Below are positions 20,786-58,548 of a stretch of DNA of 64,000 nt, in pieces. The first letter of the stretch is position 1. The number at the start of each line of letters is the position of its first letter. The translations under genes were made by a program, and so were the position numbers. Source of the stretch: Arcobacteraceae bacterium (lineage in GTDB: Bacteria; Campylobacterota; Campylobacteria; Campylobacterales; Arcobacteraceae); NCBI GenBank assembly GCA_028687375.1, contig JAQUAG010000001.1, positions 1 through 64,000 of the forward strand. The letters run 5' to 3'. The notes under the pieces are model-generated. The model saw only the letters and a list, made by a program, of their open reading frames with translations. It did no database searches and was not told the DNA's origin.

Positions 20786-23700
20786 ATGTCAAAGTATATA
20801 AAAAAACTACTAATACCATCACTTATGATATCTAGTATAAATTTATATGGAATATGTACAGATGTTGGAGGGCAATGGTTAATTGATGGTAATCCAATGA
20901 ATGGTTTTTACAGCACTGAGCAAGAGTGCCTTGCTGCAGAAGGTGGAGGAAGTGGAGGGGACAACCTCCCAACATCTTCTGATAAGATTTTTACTACGTC
21001 ACTATCTACTGGAGATAACTATACCTTTAGTATTGAAGATTTTGCGTATGCTGATTTAGATAACGATCCGTTATCTGTTATTACTATTTCAACGACATAC
21101 CTTGCAGATGATACCCATGGTAGCTTTGATGGTGATATTTATATAGATGCAAATTCAAATGGAATTATTGATAGTGGTGAAAATATACCTGTAGCATACC
21201 TTTCAAATAATGTTTTATCGGCAGTTCAAGATGGAAAGTTAAAATTTAAACCATCGGCTGGTGGGATACATGATATCTATTTTGTGGTTGGAAATAGTAA
21301 AGCATATGCTGTAAATGCAAATAATCTTAAATTTACAGTTATTGAATCAATTAAATATACTCTAACATTTGAAGAAAATGGTGGTTCAACTGTAACAGAC
21401 CAATCAATTAATGAAAATTCAACAGCAACTGAACCTACAAGTCCTACTAAATCAGGTTATACATTTGGTGGATGGTACACAGATGTAGGGCTTACAAATG
21501 CTTATAATTTTTCAACACAACTAAGTGCAAATACAACACTATATGCAAAATGGACAATTATTAATAATGCACCAACAAATTTAACTTTGTCTGCTTCTAC
21601 AATTGCTGAAAATAGTGCACAAAATACAAAAGTTGGTGACTTCTCTACCACAGATGATGGTACTATTTTTACTTATAGCTTTTGTAATGGTGTAAATGAT
21701 GGTAATTTTACTATTTCAGGAAATTCACTATTAGTAAAAAATAATTTAGACTACGAAGCTGCAACTACTCAAACTATCTGCGTAAAAACAACAGATAGTG
21801 GCAGTCTAAGTTTCAGCAAAAATTTTACTATCAACGTTACTAATGTGAATGAAGCTCCAGTAATAACAAGTACAGCTATCACAAGTAACACAATAAATAC
21901 ACTCTATAGCTATACTCCAACTGCAACCGATCCAGAAGATGACAATATCACTTGGAGCGTAGGAACTGGAACGACACTACCTACTTGGCTCTCTTTTGAC
22001 AACGGTGTGAAAGTAAATCCTAATTTTACGATTACAAATACTTACAATATTACAAACTATTTAGTTGATATTTCAGAAAATTATACAACTGGTGATTTAT
22101 TAACTTTTGATAGTTCAAAATTGCCTTCAGGTGTAACTGGTAGTTTTGATGCAACAAAAGGATTACTAAAATTTACAGGTAGTGCAACACCAGCGAGTTG
22201 GCAAGAATTATTAAGAACTGTTAAAATGACATTTTCAAATACAAGTACATTAGCAAGGAAAGTAAGCTTTACAGAGGGTAGCAATGTTGGTTTAAAAATC
22301 AATGGAGTTATGCACTACTATGAGGTAGTAAATGAAAGTAAAAGTTGGACTAGTGCTAAAAGTGCTGCTGAAGCTAAAACATTCAATGGTTTAAAAGGCT
22401 ATCTTGTAACAATCACTTCTCAAGTAGAAAATGATTTTATTGTTCAAAAAGTTAATAGTGACTCTTGGATTGGTGCTTCAGATGCACAAACTGAAAGAGA
22501 ATGGAAATGGGTAACAGGACCAGAATCAGGTACTTACTTCTTCAACCAAATCTCACAAGGGGGAGGAAATGCTATCAATGGACTATACTCAAATTGGTCT
22601 TCTGGTGAACCAAATCAATATCTTGGTGCTAATGAAGACTATGGACATATCTATGCTTCAAATAAAAAATGGAACGACTTTCCAGAGTACTATGCAATTA
22701 GTTATATAGTGGAGTATGGTGGAATGGGTAATGATGCTAGTACAAGTGATATAACAAAAACAACTACAGTATCACCTTCTCCATTAAGACTTTATGGTAC
22801 TCCTACAGCAAATGGAACTTATAATGTAACTCTTAGTGTAACAGATAGTGGTGGACATACAACACAACATCCATTTAGTATCACGGTATCAAATAGTAAT
22901 CTTACACCAACCGTTACAAGTACAGCAATTACAACAGCAACAGTGGGAACTCCTTATGAGTATGTATTAGAAGCAAGTGATGACAATGGTGATACACTTA
23001 CGTGGAGTAGCTCAACGCTTCCTAGTTGGCTAACTTTAAGTTCATTAAATGGTATAACAAAATTAAAAGGAACTCCAACAAGTTCCAATGTAGGAGCAAA
23101 TAGTGTATCACTTAGTGTAAGTGATGGAAAACTATCAGCAACTCACAATTTTAGTATCACTGTAGAAGGAGTTCCAGCAATACAAATAACAAGCACACCA
23201 ACTGAAAATGCAACACTAACTTCTAGCTATATTTATTATCCAACAGCAAAAAGTAGCACAGGGAAACCTATCGCTTGGAGTGTTAAAAATGGGACAAATC
23301 TGCCAGCTGGTATCACTTTAGAGGTAGCAAATAGTATTGAAACTATAGCTAGTGGATTATCATACCCAGCAGGAATTATCACAGATATGAATGGAAATGT
23401 GTATGTTGCAGATAGAACAGCTTATAGTGTGAAAAAGATAGATACAAATGGGACTTTAACAACACTTATTGGTAGAAATAGTACAAATGAGATGCCAGAA
23501 GATATCACTATAGATAAAGATGGTTATCTTTATGTTGCTTATTATGCAAAAGATTATGTGAAAAAATTTAACACTACTGGTACTCTTATAGAAACAATCA
23601 ATAGTAAAGCTGGTTATTATAATTCTGAAATTGAAGTAGATAGTCTGGGAAATATATATTTACTTTCTTACAAATACAATAGTAACTTGATTGATACTGA

Positions 23701-24745
23701 ATATATAAGTCAAAAGATATCAAATGGTATATCTACAACTTTAACTACAGACAGTGGATTAAATAGATACGATGCCTTTGCAATAGATAACACCGATACA
23801 CTCTATATTCAGGATTCTATATCAAACTTATCTAAAATAACCTCAAATGGAACGAAAAGTTCTCTAGAGACAAGTATCCATGCTTATGATTTAGCTGTAA
23901 ATAATGGATATTATTACTATATCTCTAATCATAAACTTTACAAAATGTCTATTGATAGTGGAAATAGCACTGTTTTAGTAGGTAGTGGTTTAGGTTATTA
24001 TCCAAAAGATATAGAAATCGCAGATGACAATAGTACTATTTATATCGCTGATACATCGAATAAAGCAGTTAAAAAATACTACCAAACTTCAAGACTAAGT
24101 GGTACTCCTACTTCAAGTGGAACATACTCTATCACTTTAGTGGCTACTGATGGTGCTGGAAATAGTTTAGAACAAACTTTTAATCTTCTTGTTGATGCAA
24201 CTGAAAATAGTGCAAATCAAACTATCGCTTCAGGTGAAAGTACAATCACAAGTGACAATATCCCTATCTCTGTAAGCACGATTGGTAATACAAAAAAAGC
24301 AATAGCTATGATTGAGGGAAGTGATGGATTGGCAATACAAACTACTGTAACACAAACAACAAGTGGATATAGTTTAGCAAGTATGTCAGTAGGGGGAACT
24401 ACTTCAACTATTGAATCAACAAATAATAGTAATATAAATATTACTCCAACTGGGACAATATTTACAACTCAAAGTGGTTATGCTACGATAGATACAGCAG
24501 GTTTGATAAAAGGTTACTTCGGAAATAATGTTATTCATACATTTGGTAGTATGAATTTTAATGATCTAATAAATAGTAGTTATAATAATCTGTCAATTAT
24601 AGCATCTCCAACAAGTGCAACAATAGACGATGGTAGCAATAGCATCACTATTGGAGTAACAGGAGGAAGATTTACTATTGATGCATCAACTTCAAGAACA
24701 CCATCAATAAATCTAATTGGTAAAGGTACAATAAATGCTAATTAA
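20786..24745 (+). CDS. Large modular surface protein: lectin, Ig-like and NHL domains
   Basis: This is a 1319-residue exported protein with an N-terminal Sec signal peptide (MSKYIKKLLIPSLMISSINLYG). Domains in order: a Cys-containing start (~25-60); a region with an acidic DANSNGIIDSGE loop (~130); a Listeria-Bacteroides (InlB-type) repeat (~190-257) ending in FGGWYTD and TLYAKW; a cadherin-like domain (~260-355); a He_PIG/Ig segment (~357-405); a C-type-lectin-like domain (~509-650) with WIGASD and WSSGEPNQ; more He_PIG segments (~665-795 and ~800-850); an NHL-type beta-propeller (~850-1100); a last He_PIG; and a Thr/Ser-rich beta tail (~1145-1319). No LPXTG or obvious autotransporter barrel is seen. 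Likely an adhesin; the ligand is unknown. Confidence 0.8.
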   Translation: MSKYIKKLLIPSLMISSINLYGICTDVGGQWLIDGNPMNGFYSTEQECLAAEGGGSGGDNLPTSSDKIFTTSLSTGDNYTFSIEDFAYADLDNDPLSVITISTTYLADDTHGSFDGDIYIDANSNGIIDSGENIPVAYLSNNVLSAVQDGKLKFKPSAGGIHDIYFVVGNSKAYAVNANNLKFTVIESIKYTLTFEENGGSTVTDQSINENSTATEPTSPTKSGYTFGGWYTDVGLTNAYNFSTQLSANTTLYAKWTIINNAPTNLTLSASTIAENSAQNTKVGDFSTTDDGTIFTYSFCNGVNDGNFTISGNSLLVKNNLDYEAATTQTICVKTTDSGSLSFSKNFTINVTNVNEAPVITSTAITSNTINTLYSYTPTATDPEDDNITWSVGTGTTLPTWLSFDNGVKVNPNFTITNTYNITNYLVDISENYTTGDLLTFDSSKLPSGVTGSFDATKGLLKFTGSATPASWQELLRTVKMTFSNTSTLARKVSFTEGSNVGLKINGVMHYYEVVNESKSWTSAKSAAEAKTFNGLKGYLVTITSQVENDFIVQKVNSDSWIGASDAQTEREWKWVTGPESGTYFFNQISQGGGNAINGLYSNWSSGEPNQYLGANEDYGHIYASNKKWNDFPEYYAISYIVEYGGMGNDASTSDITKTTTVSPSPLRLYGTPTANGTYNVTLSVTDSGGHTTQHPFSITVSNSNLTPTVTSTAITTATVGTPYEYVLEASDDNGDTLTWSSSTLPSWLTLSSLNGITKLKGTPTSSNVGANSVSLSVSDGKLSATHNFSITVEGVPAIQITSTPTENATLTSSYIYYPTAKSSTGKPIAWSVKNGTNLPAGITLEVANSIETIASGLSYPAGIITDMNGNVYVADRTAYSVKKIDTNGTLTTLIGRNSTNEMPEDITIDKDGYLYVAYYAKDYVKKFNTTGTLIETINSKAGYYNSEIEVDSLGNIYLLSYKYNSNLIDTEYISQKISNGISTTLTTDSGLNRYDAFAIDNTDTLYIQDSISNLSKITSNGTKSSLETSIHAYDLAVNNGYYYYISNHKLYKMSIDSGNSTVLVGSGLGYYPKDIEIADDNSTIYIADTSNKAVKKYYQTSRLSGTPTSSGTYSITLVATDGAGNSLEQTFNLLVDATENSANQTIASGESTITSDNIPISVSTIGNTKKAIAMIEGSDGLAIQTTVTQTTSGYSLASMSVGGTTSTIESTNNSNINITPTGTIFTTQSGYATIDTAGLIKGYFGNNVIHTFGSMNFNDLINSSYNNLSIIASPTSATIDDGSNSITIGVTGGRFTIDASTSRTPSINLIGKGTINAN

Positions 24746-51100: not shown

Positions 51101-51132
51101 TTATCCATAAAGTTATATTTTTTCATGGATAA
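51101..51132 (-). terminator. Hairpin after the Avs-like gene
   Basis: TTATCCAT (51101-51108) pairs with ATGGATAA (51125-51132) around a 16-base A/T-rich loop, about 75 bases beyond the stop codon of the Avs-like gene on the minus strand. It lacks a clean U-run, so confidence is moderate. The rest of the 190-bp gap shows nothing else clear. Confidence 0.4.
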
Positions 51133-51208: not shown

Positions 51209-54200
51209 TTATTCAATTTTACAATCTATTAAACTTTCTTTATGATTGCTATTCATATTCTTTATTTGAATCTTTCCATTTTCAACTTTATCATTATCTA
51301 AATACGCATAACCATTGATTTGCATAAGTCCGAAAAATTCATCATGTCTTCCATAAAGTGGCATATGAATTTGTTTTTCTCCAATTATTGTCCAAACTAT
51401 AGTTAAATCATTGTCATTTAAAAATTTAAGTAGATTTTCTTTTTTAACTAATAAACATTGATGTGTTTCATTATCGACACTGGCTTCAAAACATGTAAGA
51501 TTATTACTTTTATCAATGAACTCACCATCTTTTTTTGAATATCTCATGTTTAATCCATCAAAAAGTATTTTAGATGGTTTTAAAATACTGAAAGATCCTT
51601 CTTTTGAATAGTCATACTCATCTTCCCAATAATATTGGTCAGTTGTTAATGCAACTTTATGAGCATACTTCTTTGCATATGTACCATATCCAGGTTCTAT
51701 TTCAGTCCAATCTTCATGACCACCATAGTATGGGTTTTGAAAAAACTTATAAGCTTCAGACCAATAATGCTCTCTATTAAACATTTGGGAATGACCTTTT
51801 TCACTAGGCATCCAATCATTCCAAAACCATTGTTTATCTGCCCAGAGCTTAAAATCATTTAACTCTTTTTTGGGAACTAAATAACTTCTAAACTGATACC
51901 ACAAACCTTTATGTATTACTTTATATTTATCATAACCTTTTTTTATTGGCTCATCCCAATCGGGGAATGAATTTAATGCAATCCATTCCTCACTATTTTC
52001 ATCAATTACATTTAAAATATTTTGAGGATTTGGTAAATCAGCTACATGATTTACCCAAGTAGTATTATCCATACCCCAGTCGATATTAACTTTTGAAGTC
52101 CACCAAAAAGTTTTATTTGATTTTTTATCTATTTTTGTCTCTTTAATTAGAATTGTTGGATCAATATCTCTTACACATGGTTCAAAAGGACCTTGATATT
52201 GTATTTCTTCTTTTTGATCTCCCCAACTACTAGCATCGTACATTTTAAAATTATCAGTTACTCTTGCTAAAGTATCAAAAAATGCTATCCATTGGTATTT
52301 TTTGCCAATTCTTTCTGTGCTGTGATTATGTCTATCGTATCCTCTCTTCATACTACTTATTGCCTTTTCAGCATCATTGAAAAATTCTCCACTATAACCA
52401 TACTCTTCAAATATCTTTTTTGTAGCATAATTACTAATTAACTGTGCATCTTTCTTGCATTCAAAATCGTACAACTTACTTTCAAAAACATATCTTCCAA
52501 AATCTCCATAACCTCCCTGACCATAGCCATATTCAGTCATCATGGATGATATTATTCTACTTTGATGATAATCTTTACCTCTATCTTGATACTTGTCTAT
52601 ATCCTCTTTCTTCGGCAATTCACTAATTTGTGGAAATTCACTATTATAAGGTGGCATAATTTTATTAAAATCTAAATCAAGAGTAACCCCTATATAGGAT
52701 ATATAATCAATAGTGTTTTTAGCATAATCTCTCAATAAAATATGCGGATAAACTTCATCTTTATTAAAAATAGTGTTGTAAATATATTCTCCTAATTCTT
52801 TTAAATGATCATAGTTTTCTAATCTTATTACTACACCAAGTGAAACTGCAAATAATCGTTCGTAAATATACGGTTCAGTTATATTTTCAAACTTTTTTAG
52901 AAGTGATAAAACAACTGTAACTCTATTTTGTAAAAGTGATATTAACGCTTTAGTTGCATAATCTCTTAGCTGTCTATTTGAAGATATCAATAGCCAAGAT
53001 AAAGCAATAGAAGTTAATAAAATAGAATCAGTAGATATATAACTTTTATCTTCATCTGACCAAGCCCAGTCAATCAAGCGTTTTATTGGATTTGTTTCAT
53101 AATTCATATATATGCTATTTAAAAGAGGTATCAAAAAAACATCTCTATCTTTCATTGTAAACTTTGACAAGTAGTCAAACAGTAAATTTGCATTGAGTGG
53201 ATGTTGTGGATTTGAAGCTGTAGAAAACAGTATTTTATAAATATCCTCCTGAAAGTGTTCATTATCAATATTTTTCATAATTCTATCTATAACATTTGGT
53301 GTTATACTGTCAACTTTTCTCCAAACTAAACTATTCAAAAAGCTATCAATGATTTCCTCATTTTGTTCAACAACATCAATTAACTCAAAAGAAGCTCTCT
53401 CTGGTAATTGTATACACATAGCATCAATAACACCACGATTAAAAAATATATTATTCCCTTCAAAATAAGTAGATAATGACTTTTTCTCAAAAGACTCTTT
53501 AGGATTCTCTTTGTCCAAATAATTATCAAAAAGATATTTTACTTTTAAATTATCTTCAAATCGTTCATAGGCAAAATATATTTTCTCAAAAAGTTCATTG
53601 TTTTCATAAAAAATATTTTTAGTAAGTAGTCCTTCTGAAATCAAATCCTCTAATAAGCCTGATGCTATTCTATACTTTAAAGAAATACTTTCAACTATTT
53701 CAAAAGCTGTATCATAGGCTATTATTTGGTTATTTATCATTTCACTAACTAGAGTATCAATTACTTTCTCTACAAGTTTTAAACTTTTTATATTTTCATA
53801 TTTTTTTAATAATTTCTCTTCAACACCTTCTATAAAAAATCTTATAATATTTGTAATCCCTTCATACCCATCAGGTACATGAGTTAATCCTTTCTTATTC
53901 AATCCTTCACAAAATAATTTTAAAAGAAGAGGATTCGAGAATTCAGGATGCAATAAAGGTATAGATGGTTGTAAGATATTATAATTTTCAAAAAATAATT
54001 TGGAAGCATTGTACTCTACCCCTTCAAACCCAAAATGGGTTATTGGTATAGCTAAACCTTTTTCAAATATTTTTCTAGGAACTATCAAATCAAAATATGA
54101 ACTTCTTATGCTCAATACTAATCCAAGCCATTCATACTGTTTAATAGATTCTATAAAACTAATTAAAAACTCATTCCAAAAATCACGACCTTTTCCCTCA

Positions 54201-55513
54201 TTGATTGCATCTATAAATATTATCAGTCGTTTATTCTGTGACTCTGCTTTTGCATTTAAAGCACCTAGAAACTCAGCTTCATTACAATTTAGTCTTAGTA
54301 AGTCATTTAAGATTTGACTCCAAGGATGTATTTCATTTTTAAATTGTTGCCCCAATAAAAAAATAGAATTTGAATTTTCTTTAATTCTTTCATTCACAAT
54401 ATCAGCAAGAAGATGAGATTTCCCAATTCCTGCTTCTCCATCTAAAATCATAAATGGATTATTTACAAACATTAATGTCCTTGAATTAATAATCCCTTTA
54501 AATTGATATAAGTTAGATAGATAGTCTCTCAAATTTTTTACATTACTATCATATTTTGTAGATGTTCTATAACCTTCAGGAGAAGTTTTTATTTTTTGTT
54601 CTTCAATCTCTTTTCTATTTATTTCATCCAAAGTGTCACTTAATTCATAGGATATATTACCTATTTCTTCTAAAAGTTTCTCAATTTGCTTAAATTCAAT
54701 ATATGCTACTCCATCAAATATTATGTGTTCATATAATACTTCCAAAGCATTTATTTTATCAGTTAATTGAATCACTGAAGATTCAATATGTTCATTTTTT
54801 TCATATAAGTGGTCTAAAAAATTTCTATATGAAACCATAAATTCATGATAAAAATTATCTACTTTATTTTTAAATCTTTCATTACGACTTAACGCATCAA
54901 AATTTTCTACTATGTCAAGTTCTACATTGATTTCAGGAGTATATCTTTTATCTAAATCAGCTATTGCAAGCTTATTTTGGTTGTCAAACCAATCATTTGA
55001 TAAATCAATATCACCGAAGAAAAAACTTTTTAATCCTGCATTCTTTTCTTCACTTAATCGCGTAATAAAATCTGAACTTCCCCAGTAAATAAACTCAATT
55101 TCTTTACCATAAGTATCTTTTGCAAATTTTTTCCATTTTTTAACTTTATCATCCCATTTTTCCATAAAGGATGAACGGTTAGGTATTCTAGGGTCAGCTC
55201 TATCTTGAGGGATAGCCACATAATAAGTGACCATATTAGGATGTTTTTGTAAGGCTGTTTCAAATGAATGTTCAATTTGATTCCATTGAGTGTCTTGAGG
55301 AGTAGATAAAAACCATTTAGCTTGAAATCCTATCTCATAACCGTTATTTAAGACAACATAACATTCAACTCCACCATCGGGATTGCCAACTTTTTTGAAC
55401 TTTTTTTTGTTTTGAATATCTTCTTTTTTTGCTAATTGACATAGCAACTCTTCAAACGCATCATTTTGAGAGCTATTCAAACTTATGATATTTGTCCAAT
55501 GAAAATTACTCAT
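51209..55513 (-). CDS. Avs-like STAND NTPase with N-terminal Mrr-like nuclease (antiphage defence)
   Basis: This 1434-residue cytoplasmic protein has an N-terminal PD-(D/E)XK nuclease of Mrr type (about 1-170; NPDGGVE with Asp46/Glu50, then FQAKW with Lys66), a helical linker, and a STAND-type P-loop NTPase: Walker A DGEAGIGKS (residues 358-366), Walker B LIIFIDAINEG (430-440), and SIRSSYFD (468-475) after it. A long helical and beta C-terminal part (~500-1434) would be the sensor. This is the layout of Avs proteins, which detect phage portal or terminase and then cut DNA; the Mrr-type nuclease is most like Avs4. It is a single gene with its own TATAAT (55538-55543, minus strand) and GGAGA ribosome site. 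Family by motif only. Confidence 0.75.
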   Translation of the reverse strand: MSNFHWTNIISLNSSQNDAFEELLCQLAKKEDIQNKKKFKKVGNPDGGVECYVVLNNGYEIGFQAKWFLSTPQDTQWNQIEHSFETALQKHPNMVTYYVAIPQDRADPRIPNRSSFMEKWDDKVKKWKKFAKDTYGKEIEFIYWGSSDFITRLSEEKNAGLKSFFFGDIDLSNDWFDNQNKLAIADLDKRYTPEINVELDIVENFDALSRNERFKNKVDNFYHEFMVSYRNFLDHLYEKNEHIESSVIQLTDKINALEVLYEHIIFDGVAYIEFKQIEKLLEEIGNISYELSDTLDEINRKEIEEQKIKTSPEGYRTSTKYDSNVKNLRDYLSNLYQFKGIINSRTLMFVNNPFMILDGEAGIGKSHLLADIVNERIKENSNSIFLLGQQFKNEIHPWSQILNDLLRLNCNEAEFLGALNAKAESQNKRLIIFIDAINEGKGRDFWNEFLISFIESIKQYEWLGLVLSIRSSYFDLIVPRKIFEKGLAIPITHFGFEGVEYNASKLFFENYNILQPSIPLLHPEFSNPLLLKLFCEGLNKKGLTHVPDGYEGITNIIRFFIEGVEEKLLKKYENIKSLKLVEKVIDTLVSEMINNQIIAYDTAFEIVESISLKYRIASGLLEDLISEGLLTKNIFYENNELFEKIYFAYERFEDNLKVKYLFDNYLDKENPKESFEKKSLSTYFEGNNIFFNRGVIDAMCIQLPERASFELIDVVEQNEEIIDSFLNSLVWRKVDSITPNVIDRIMKNIDNEHFQEDIYKILFSTASNPQHPLNANLLFDYLSKFTMKDRDVFLIPLLNSIYMNYETNPIKRLIDWAWSDEDKSYISTDSILLTSIALSWLLISSNRQLRDYATKALISLLQNRVTVVLSLLKKFENITEPYIYERLFAVSLGVVIRLENYDHLKELGEYIYNTIFNKDEVYPHILLRDYAKNTIDYISYIGVTLDLDFNKIMPPYNSEFPQISELPKKEDIDKYQDRGKDYHQSRIISSMMTEYGYGQGGYGDFGRYVFESKLYDFECKKDAQLISNYATKKIFEEYGYSGEFFNDAEKAISSMKRGYDRHNHSTERIGKKYQWIAFFDTLARVTDNFKMYDASSWGDQKEEIQYQGPFEPCVRDIDPTILIKETKIDKKSNKTFWWTSKVNIDWGMDNTTWVNHVADLPNPQNILNVIDENSEEWIALNSFPDWDEPIKKGYDKYKVIHKGLWYQFRSYLVPKKELNDFKLWADKQWFWNDWMPSEKGHSQMFNREHYWSEAYKFFQNPYYGGHEDWTEIEPGYGTYAKKYAHKVALTTDQYYWEDEYDYSKEGSFSILKPSKILFDGLNMRYSKKDGEFIDKSNNLTCFEASVDNETHQCLLVKKENLLKFLNDNDLTIVWTIIGEKQIHMPLYGRHDEFFGLMQINGYAYLDNDKVENGKIQIKNMNSNHKESLIDCKIE

Positions 55514-55553
55514 AACTTATCTCCTGCATTCAGCTTGATTATAAAGTCTAATC

Positions 55554-58272: not shown

Positions 58273-58548
58273 CTAGTATATAACAACATCTGAGGAATAT
58301 ATCGAATCGAAGAATTCTCCAATAGGAACATCAAGTGCTTTTGATATTTTATAAAGATGTTCAAGGTTAAAATGCTTATCGTATTTTGTATTCTCACAAT
58401 TTGAGTAAAAAGCAACTGACTTGATACCAATCTCAAGGGCTAAGTCAAGCTGGGTAATGCCTCTTTCCTCCCTTAATTTTCTTATTTTCTTTCCAATCTC
58501 TGTATAAAAAGCATTTATTTCTTGTTTATTTGTATTGCTAAAGTCCAT
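58273..58548 (-). CDS. XRE-family regulator
   Basis: This 91-residue protein has a Cro/C1-type HTH (about 15-72) with ITQLDLALEIGIKSVAFYSN and AFYSNCENTK, a complete small repressor without effector domain. It is divergent from an unusual histidine kinase gene. Its start is overlapped by half of a TTTATCC-type operator (58555-58566), and a perfect palindrome lies near the kinase promoter (58611-58628), so it probably represses itself and the kinase. Confidence 0.87.
   Translation of the reverse strand: MDFSNTNKQEINAFYTEIGKKIRKLREERGITQLDLALEIGIKSVAFYSNCENTKYDKHFNLEHLYKISKALDVPIGEFFDSIYSSDVVIY

Follow-up and report, generated by a model that had tools for sequence, protein, structure and literature searches.

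A STAND protein of the Avs2 family with an Avs4-like PD-(D/E)XK nuclease in an Arcobacteraceae bacterium

Among the Avs proteins, the large terminase subunit is the trigger of Avs1 to Avs3, and the portal is that of Avs4 (PMC12724215). The E. coli Avs2 combines a C-terminal sensor, ATP-dependent oligomerization, and a toxic N-terminal effector, and a Klebsiella Avs2 binds Ksap1 in addition to the terminase (PMC12724215). The nuclease effectors of Avs1 to Avs4 cleave phage DNA as well as host DNA (PMC12931631). Avs2 is a known and widespread family, and the gene described here, which lies in a 64,000-nucleotide stretch of Arcobacteraceae DNA (the window), is a well-preserved further member of it and represents no new system. 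Its product is an intact Avs2 in which an Avs2 chassis carries an Avs4-like PD-(D/E)XK nuclease.

A preliminary description of this DNA had proposed an Avs-type antiphage STAND protein. We found that all six PADLOC matches of the protein were Avs2 models, the best of which scored 1643 bits and aligned residues 3-1421 of the protein with positions 2-1374 of the 1379 positions of the model. The NCBIfam Avs2 equivalog NF041813, which spans the STAND core and the sensor without the effector, gave 1253.2 bits against a cut-off of 1000, and the nearest solved chain was the Avs2 9o4e (E = 3.3e-241), with an alignment beginning at residue 170. Generic Pfam STAND, NACHT, and AAA models gave subthreshold scores only. 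A single protein thus holds an N-terminal effector, a STAND NTPase with intact Walker motifs, and a long C-terminal sensor, as summarized in Table 1; the plus strand of the same interval offers no comparable frame, its translation being full of stops. The nuclease motif and both Walker motifs are where the preliminary description had placed them, and this motif set is no chance pattern, since curated Avs2 models match the full length at E = 0 and K365 and D435 are retained in nearly all homologues (Table 1). The profile check against PADLOC models that the preliminary description had suggested therefore came out in favor of its proposal, as did the homology of the C-terminal part to an Avs sensor and the retention of the nuclease residues in homologues.

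Table 1. Positions of the avs2 gene, its protein domains, and motifs in the window
Feature	Positions	Strand	Basis or remark
avs2 gene, 1434 aa + stop	51209..55513	minus	Single uninterrupted ATG-to-stop frame
Ribosome-binding site AGGAG	55521..55525	minus	7 nt upstream of avs2 ATG, from sequence
PD-(D/E)XK nuclease effector, Avs4-like, residues 1-165	55019..55513	minus	Profile and AlphaFold2/Foldseek, both 8dgf
Catalytic motif, residues 46-66 (D46, E50, Q64, K66)	55316..55378	minus	Conserved in aligned effectors
Variable effector-NTPase linker, residues 166-345	54479..55018	minus	Identity drop versus NTPase
STAND/NACHT-type NTPase, residues 346-560	53834..54478	minus	Avs2 models; subthreshold NACHT/AAA matches
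Walker A DGEAGIGKS, residues 358-366	54416..54442	minus	K365 in 96/97 homologues
Walker B IIFIDAINEG, residues 431-440	54194..54223	minus	D435 in 96/97 homologues
Avs2 sensor, residues 561-1434	51212..53833	minus	PADLOC, 9o4e profile, fold model
Sensor insert site (insert absent here), residues 1004-1067	52313..52504	minus	Bimodal lengths in family
Avs2 signature ERIGKKYQW, residues 1067-1075	52289..52315	minus	Conserved across 97 homologues

No match exists between the first ~165 residues and the N-termini of the E. coli and Vibrio Avs2 proteins, which are unrelated. When a profile of 48 homologous N-termini was searched against solved chains, one significant match was obtained, to residues 3-173 of the Avs4 8dgf (E = 8.8e-12), and the catalytic G-E...Q-x-K was aligned between the two. 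With an AlphaFold2 model of the effector (mean pLDDT of 94.6), Foldseek again ranked the Avs4 8dgf first (E = 6.9e-5), and the restriction endonucleases R.BspD6I and EcoO109I were among the weaker matches. The catalytic motif reads NPDGGVE...QAK, in which E50, Q64, and K66 are invariant in the 48 aligned effectors and D46 is kept in more than 90% of them; the PADLOC model PDLC02162 covers the nuclease over 173 residues with 227 bits. These data indicated that the nuclease is akin to that of Avs4, whose N-terminus ranks first both in the profile search and in the fold search. The preliminary description had spoken of an Mrr-type nuclease as in Avs4, of which the kinship to the 8dgf N-terminus stands; the Pfam Mrr_cat domain was rejected, its best score of 12.0 bits lying below the gathering threshold of 21, and "Mrr-like" fits as a loose label only, by way of Avs4.

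Such an effector would also be present if the whole protein were an Avs4 with a portal-sensing C-terminal sensor, the type to which the nuclease had been taken to point in the preliminary description. Yet no Avs4 model of PADLOC or NCBIfam matched, even at E values of up to 10, where the PADLOC matches were exclusively Avs2, and the sensor profile retrieved 9o4e alone among solved chains and missed 8dgf, while the sensor fold led to the Avs3 8dgc (see below). The assignment to Avs4 was rejected on these grounds, and we regard this reading as extremely improbable. By its STAND core and sensor, the protein is an Avs2 (AVAST type 2).

How this combination is distributed was examined in a broad sample of homologues. 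A single-sequence scan of genome contigs for close relatives returned none. With an alignment as the query, 289 relatives were reported among 84,980 species genomes, spread over archaea and a wide range of bacterial phyla. Eighty of them were kept, and after removal of fragments and addition of plasmid, viral, E. coli, and Campylobacterota members, an alignment of 97 proteins was obtained. The signature ERIGKKYQW is nearly invariant in it (K1071, K1072, and W1075 in 97/97 and G1070 in 96/97). A nuclease of the window type was found in 64 of the 97, a figure that is biased and gives no unbiased frequency because five of the seven rows of the search alignment itself had this nuclease; all 64 keep E50, Q64, and K66, and 60 keep D46. 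Avs2 with an Avs4-like nuclease was the commonest combination in this sample, and the pairing is already modeled in PADLOC. Archaeal Avs2 proteins with the window-type nuclease were seen in a member of Halobacteriales (L138) and in methanogens (L130 and L133). Other N-termini in the Avs2 clade appeared, by eye, to be of the E. coli type, trypsin-like, membrane spanning, or nearly missing; in two Bacteroidota proteins (L113 and L128), the first ~230 residues resemble by eye a trypsin-like protease (TAxHCL ... GFSGSG).

The alignment of homologues places the boundary of effector exchange near residue 170, and the linker that follows (residues 166-345) shows 43 to 52% identity to the nearest homologues versus 70 to 78% for the NTPase. 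On a tree of 93 homologues, from which the effector columns had been left out and which was built by a quick method without a mixture model, the effector label changes 11 times, and at least 9 of these changes are forced by strongly supported branches; a long-branch warning was issued for the tree, which does not touch the clade of the window protein. Effector swapping is thus frequent in the Avs2 family, and the effector type should not be used for assigning the Avs type.

The sensor (residues 560-1434) matched 9o4e with 950 bits in a profile search and PDLC02162 with 939 bits. Its predicted model (mean pLDDT of 90.6) comprises a helical solenoid that extends to about residue 1090 and a beta-rich domain that starts near residue 1168. 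The structure comparison of the C-terminal part, likewise suggested in the preliminary description, led to an Avs sensor as well, since the sole significant PDB fold match in Foldseek was the terminase-bound Avs3 8dgc (E = 8.8e-9; TM-score of 0.29, a low global value being usual for a flexible solenoid). 9o4e was absent among the 50 fold matches listed for the sensor, and the comparison with Avs2 was therefore made by sequence. No Avs3 family model matched in PADLOC.

The sensor comes in two lengths. In the 97 Avs2 proteins, the region corresponding to residues 1004-1067 measures either 56 to 71 or 155 to 194 residues, and a single protein has 94. The short form is found in the window protein and the long one in the E. 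coli Avs2. The insert of ~100 residues occurs in about one-third of the sampled proteins and changes between presence and absence seven times on the tree. This dimorphism offers a ready comparison for locating the ligand-reading part of Avs2. It also bears on a reading in which the main target of the sensor in this clade is a different phage protein from terminase, whether Ksap1-like or not, and the short form is a different binder. The binding of Ksap1 besides terminase by a Klebsiella Avs2 (PMC12724215) is in line with it, as are the lack of the ~100-residue segment here and the position of the last 234 residues among the less conserved parts of the protein (54 to 61% identity to the nearest relatives versus 70 to 78% for the NTPase). 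Nevertheless, the rest of the sensor aligns collinearly with its homologous counterpart in the E. coli Avs2, as the 950-bit match shows, and the short form is that of ~2/3 of the sampled Avs2 proteins, so we judge a mainly non-terminase ligand to be unlikely and favor terminase sensing.

The window protein falls into a small clade of Campylobacterota only (five rows, support of 100), which includes Campylobacter majalis. The suggestion of a divergent Campylobacterota branch in the preliminary description is borne out in the composition of this clade, but the protein is not especially divergent, given its 1643 bits over the whole Avs2 model. Full-length relatives were present in 4 of 397 sampled Campylobacterota genomes, the host included, and the NCBIfam Avs2 cut-off was passed in 3 of 399 genomes of the order of the host, one of which (G444) was missing from the matches of the first, 397-genome sample. 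Members of the C. majalis type are clearly related; the one tested, from G170, reached 942 bits, just under the NCBIfam cut-off. That the short-sensor clade of Campylobacterota has shifted from terminase to another conserved phage protein while keeping the Avs4-like nuclease is conceivable, and we consider it quite unlikely.

Two further proteins were noticed. In the same family as the host, genome G374 encodes a 1549-aa protein (L040:6215-10861) that is distantly Avs2-like and has an N-terminal nuclease of the type seen here; it scored 417 bits with a PADLOC Avs2 model and 283 of the 1000 bits of NCBIfam Avs2 and may represent an undescribed Avs2-related branch. In a Campylobacteraceae metagenome-assembled genome, a sister of the window clade (L089:5591-9612) has an Avs2 body with ~32 residues ahead of the linker, and a 105-aa frame lies before it and overlaps it; its effector has either been lost or is encoded by a small separate gene.

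The avs2 gene is flanked by genes for an AraC-type regulator, PNPOx-like proteins, YjbR, a flavin reductase-like protein, and a transporter that was named KefB-like by eye. It stands alone among housekeeping genes, as the preliminary description had held: neither Pfam nor PADLOC revealed an adjacent defense system, the helix-turn-helix matches at 58273-58548 being generic. No tRNA gene was found in the window. The body of avs2 is slightly lower in G+C than its flanks (about 0.26 to 0.30 versus 0.29 to 0.34). A genome of the same genus follows the left flank as far as position 51114, with a match of 97%, and has other genes beyond, and the transporter of the right flank is located elsewhere in it. 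A clean empty site was rejected for this reason, and the arrangement fits gain or loss of avs2 at this site. In genome G397 (L022:1616-2753), the neighboring AraC-type gene is 97 to 98% identical to that of the window and lacks ~300 bases in its middle. Candidate defense genes were seen near avs2 in two Campylobacterota relatives, one PDC-S05/RhuM-like (L037) and one DUF262-like (L039). Elsewhere in the window, a 1319-aa protein (20786-24745, plus strand) shows repeat, lectin-like, and beta-propeller-like stretches by eye and is apparently a large exported adhesin.

The isolation of the gene among housekeeping genes, with no other recognized defense gene beside it, speaks for a STAND ATPase that has decayed or been repurposed and plays no role in defense. 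The frame is intact, however, with every catalytic residue present, and the homologues are patchy in distribution and often lie on plasmids or viral contigs, as defense genes do. Decay or repurposing is consequently a reading to which we give hardly any credence, and a functional antiphage protein is favored.

Taken together, these results make it highly probable that the window Avs2 works as a single-protein antiphage receptor, in which terminase sensing would lead to oligomerization and to DNA cleavage by the nuclease. By analogy with characterized Avs2 proteins, the C-terminal ~870 residues would recognize a protein conserved among phages, most probably the large subunit of the terminase, upon which the ATP-bound STAND NTPase would assemble an Avs2 oligomer. 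The oligomer would bring the N-terminal PD-(D/E)XK domains together and thereby activate the nuclease, whose cutting of DNA would stop the phage and usually kill the cell, as in abortive infection. As the STAND core and sensor are of the Avs2 type, the expected trigger class would be terminase and not portal; we infer this ligand from other Avs members, and terminase-triggered cleavage is likely since the sensor is homologous to that of Avs2 and its fold is closest to the terminase-bound Avs3. The ligand range need not equal that of the E. coli Avs2, given the different effector and the missing sensor insert of ~100 residues. Neither of two Pfam terminase families was found in the host genome, which hints that there may be no obvious self-trigger.

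In comparison with known systems, the protein resembles the E. coli Avs2 (9o4e; NF041813; PDLC02162) in its homologous STAND NTPase and sensor, which run in the same order from residue 170 to the C-terminus, and in being likewise a single-gene system; it differs in its N-terminus, which is unrelated to that of the E. coli protein, and in lacking ~100 sensor residues that the latter possesses. The PADLOC Avs2 model PDLC02162 includes an N-terminal nuclease as found here. With the E. coli Avs4 (8dgf), the window protein shares a homologous N-terminal PD-(D/E)XK nuclease of ~165 residues, whereas the sensors of the two have no detectable similarity and no Avs4 model was matched. The terminase-bound Avs3 (8dgc) is the best fold match of the sensor region, although no sequence similarity to it was detected and no Avs3 model was matched. 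An Avs2 chassis joined to a nuclease of the Avs4 kind is thus a clear example of modularity in bacterial NLR-like immunity.
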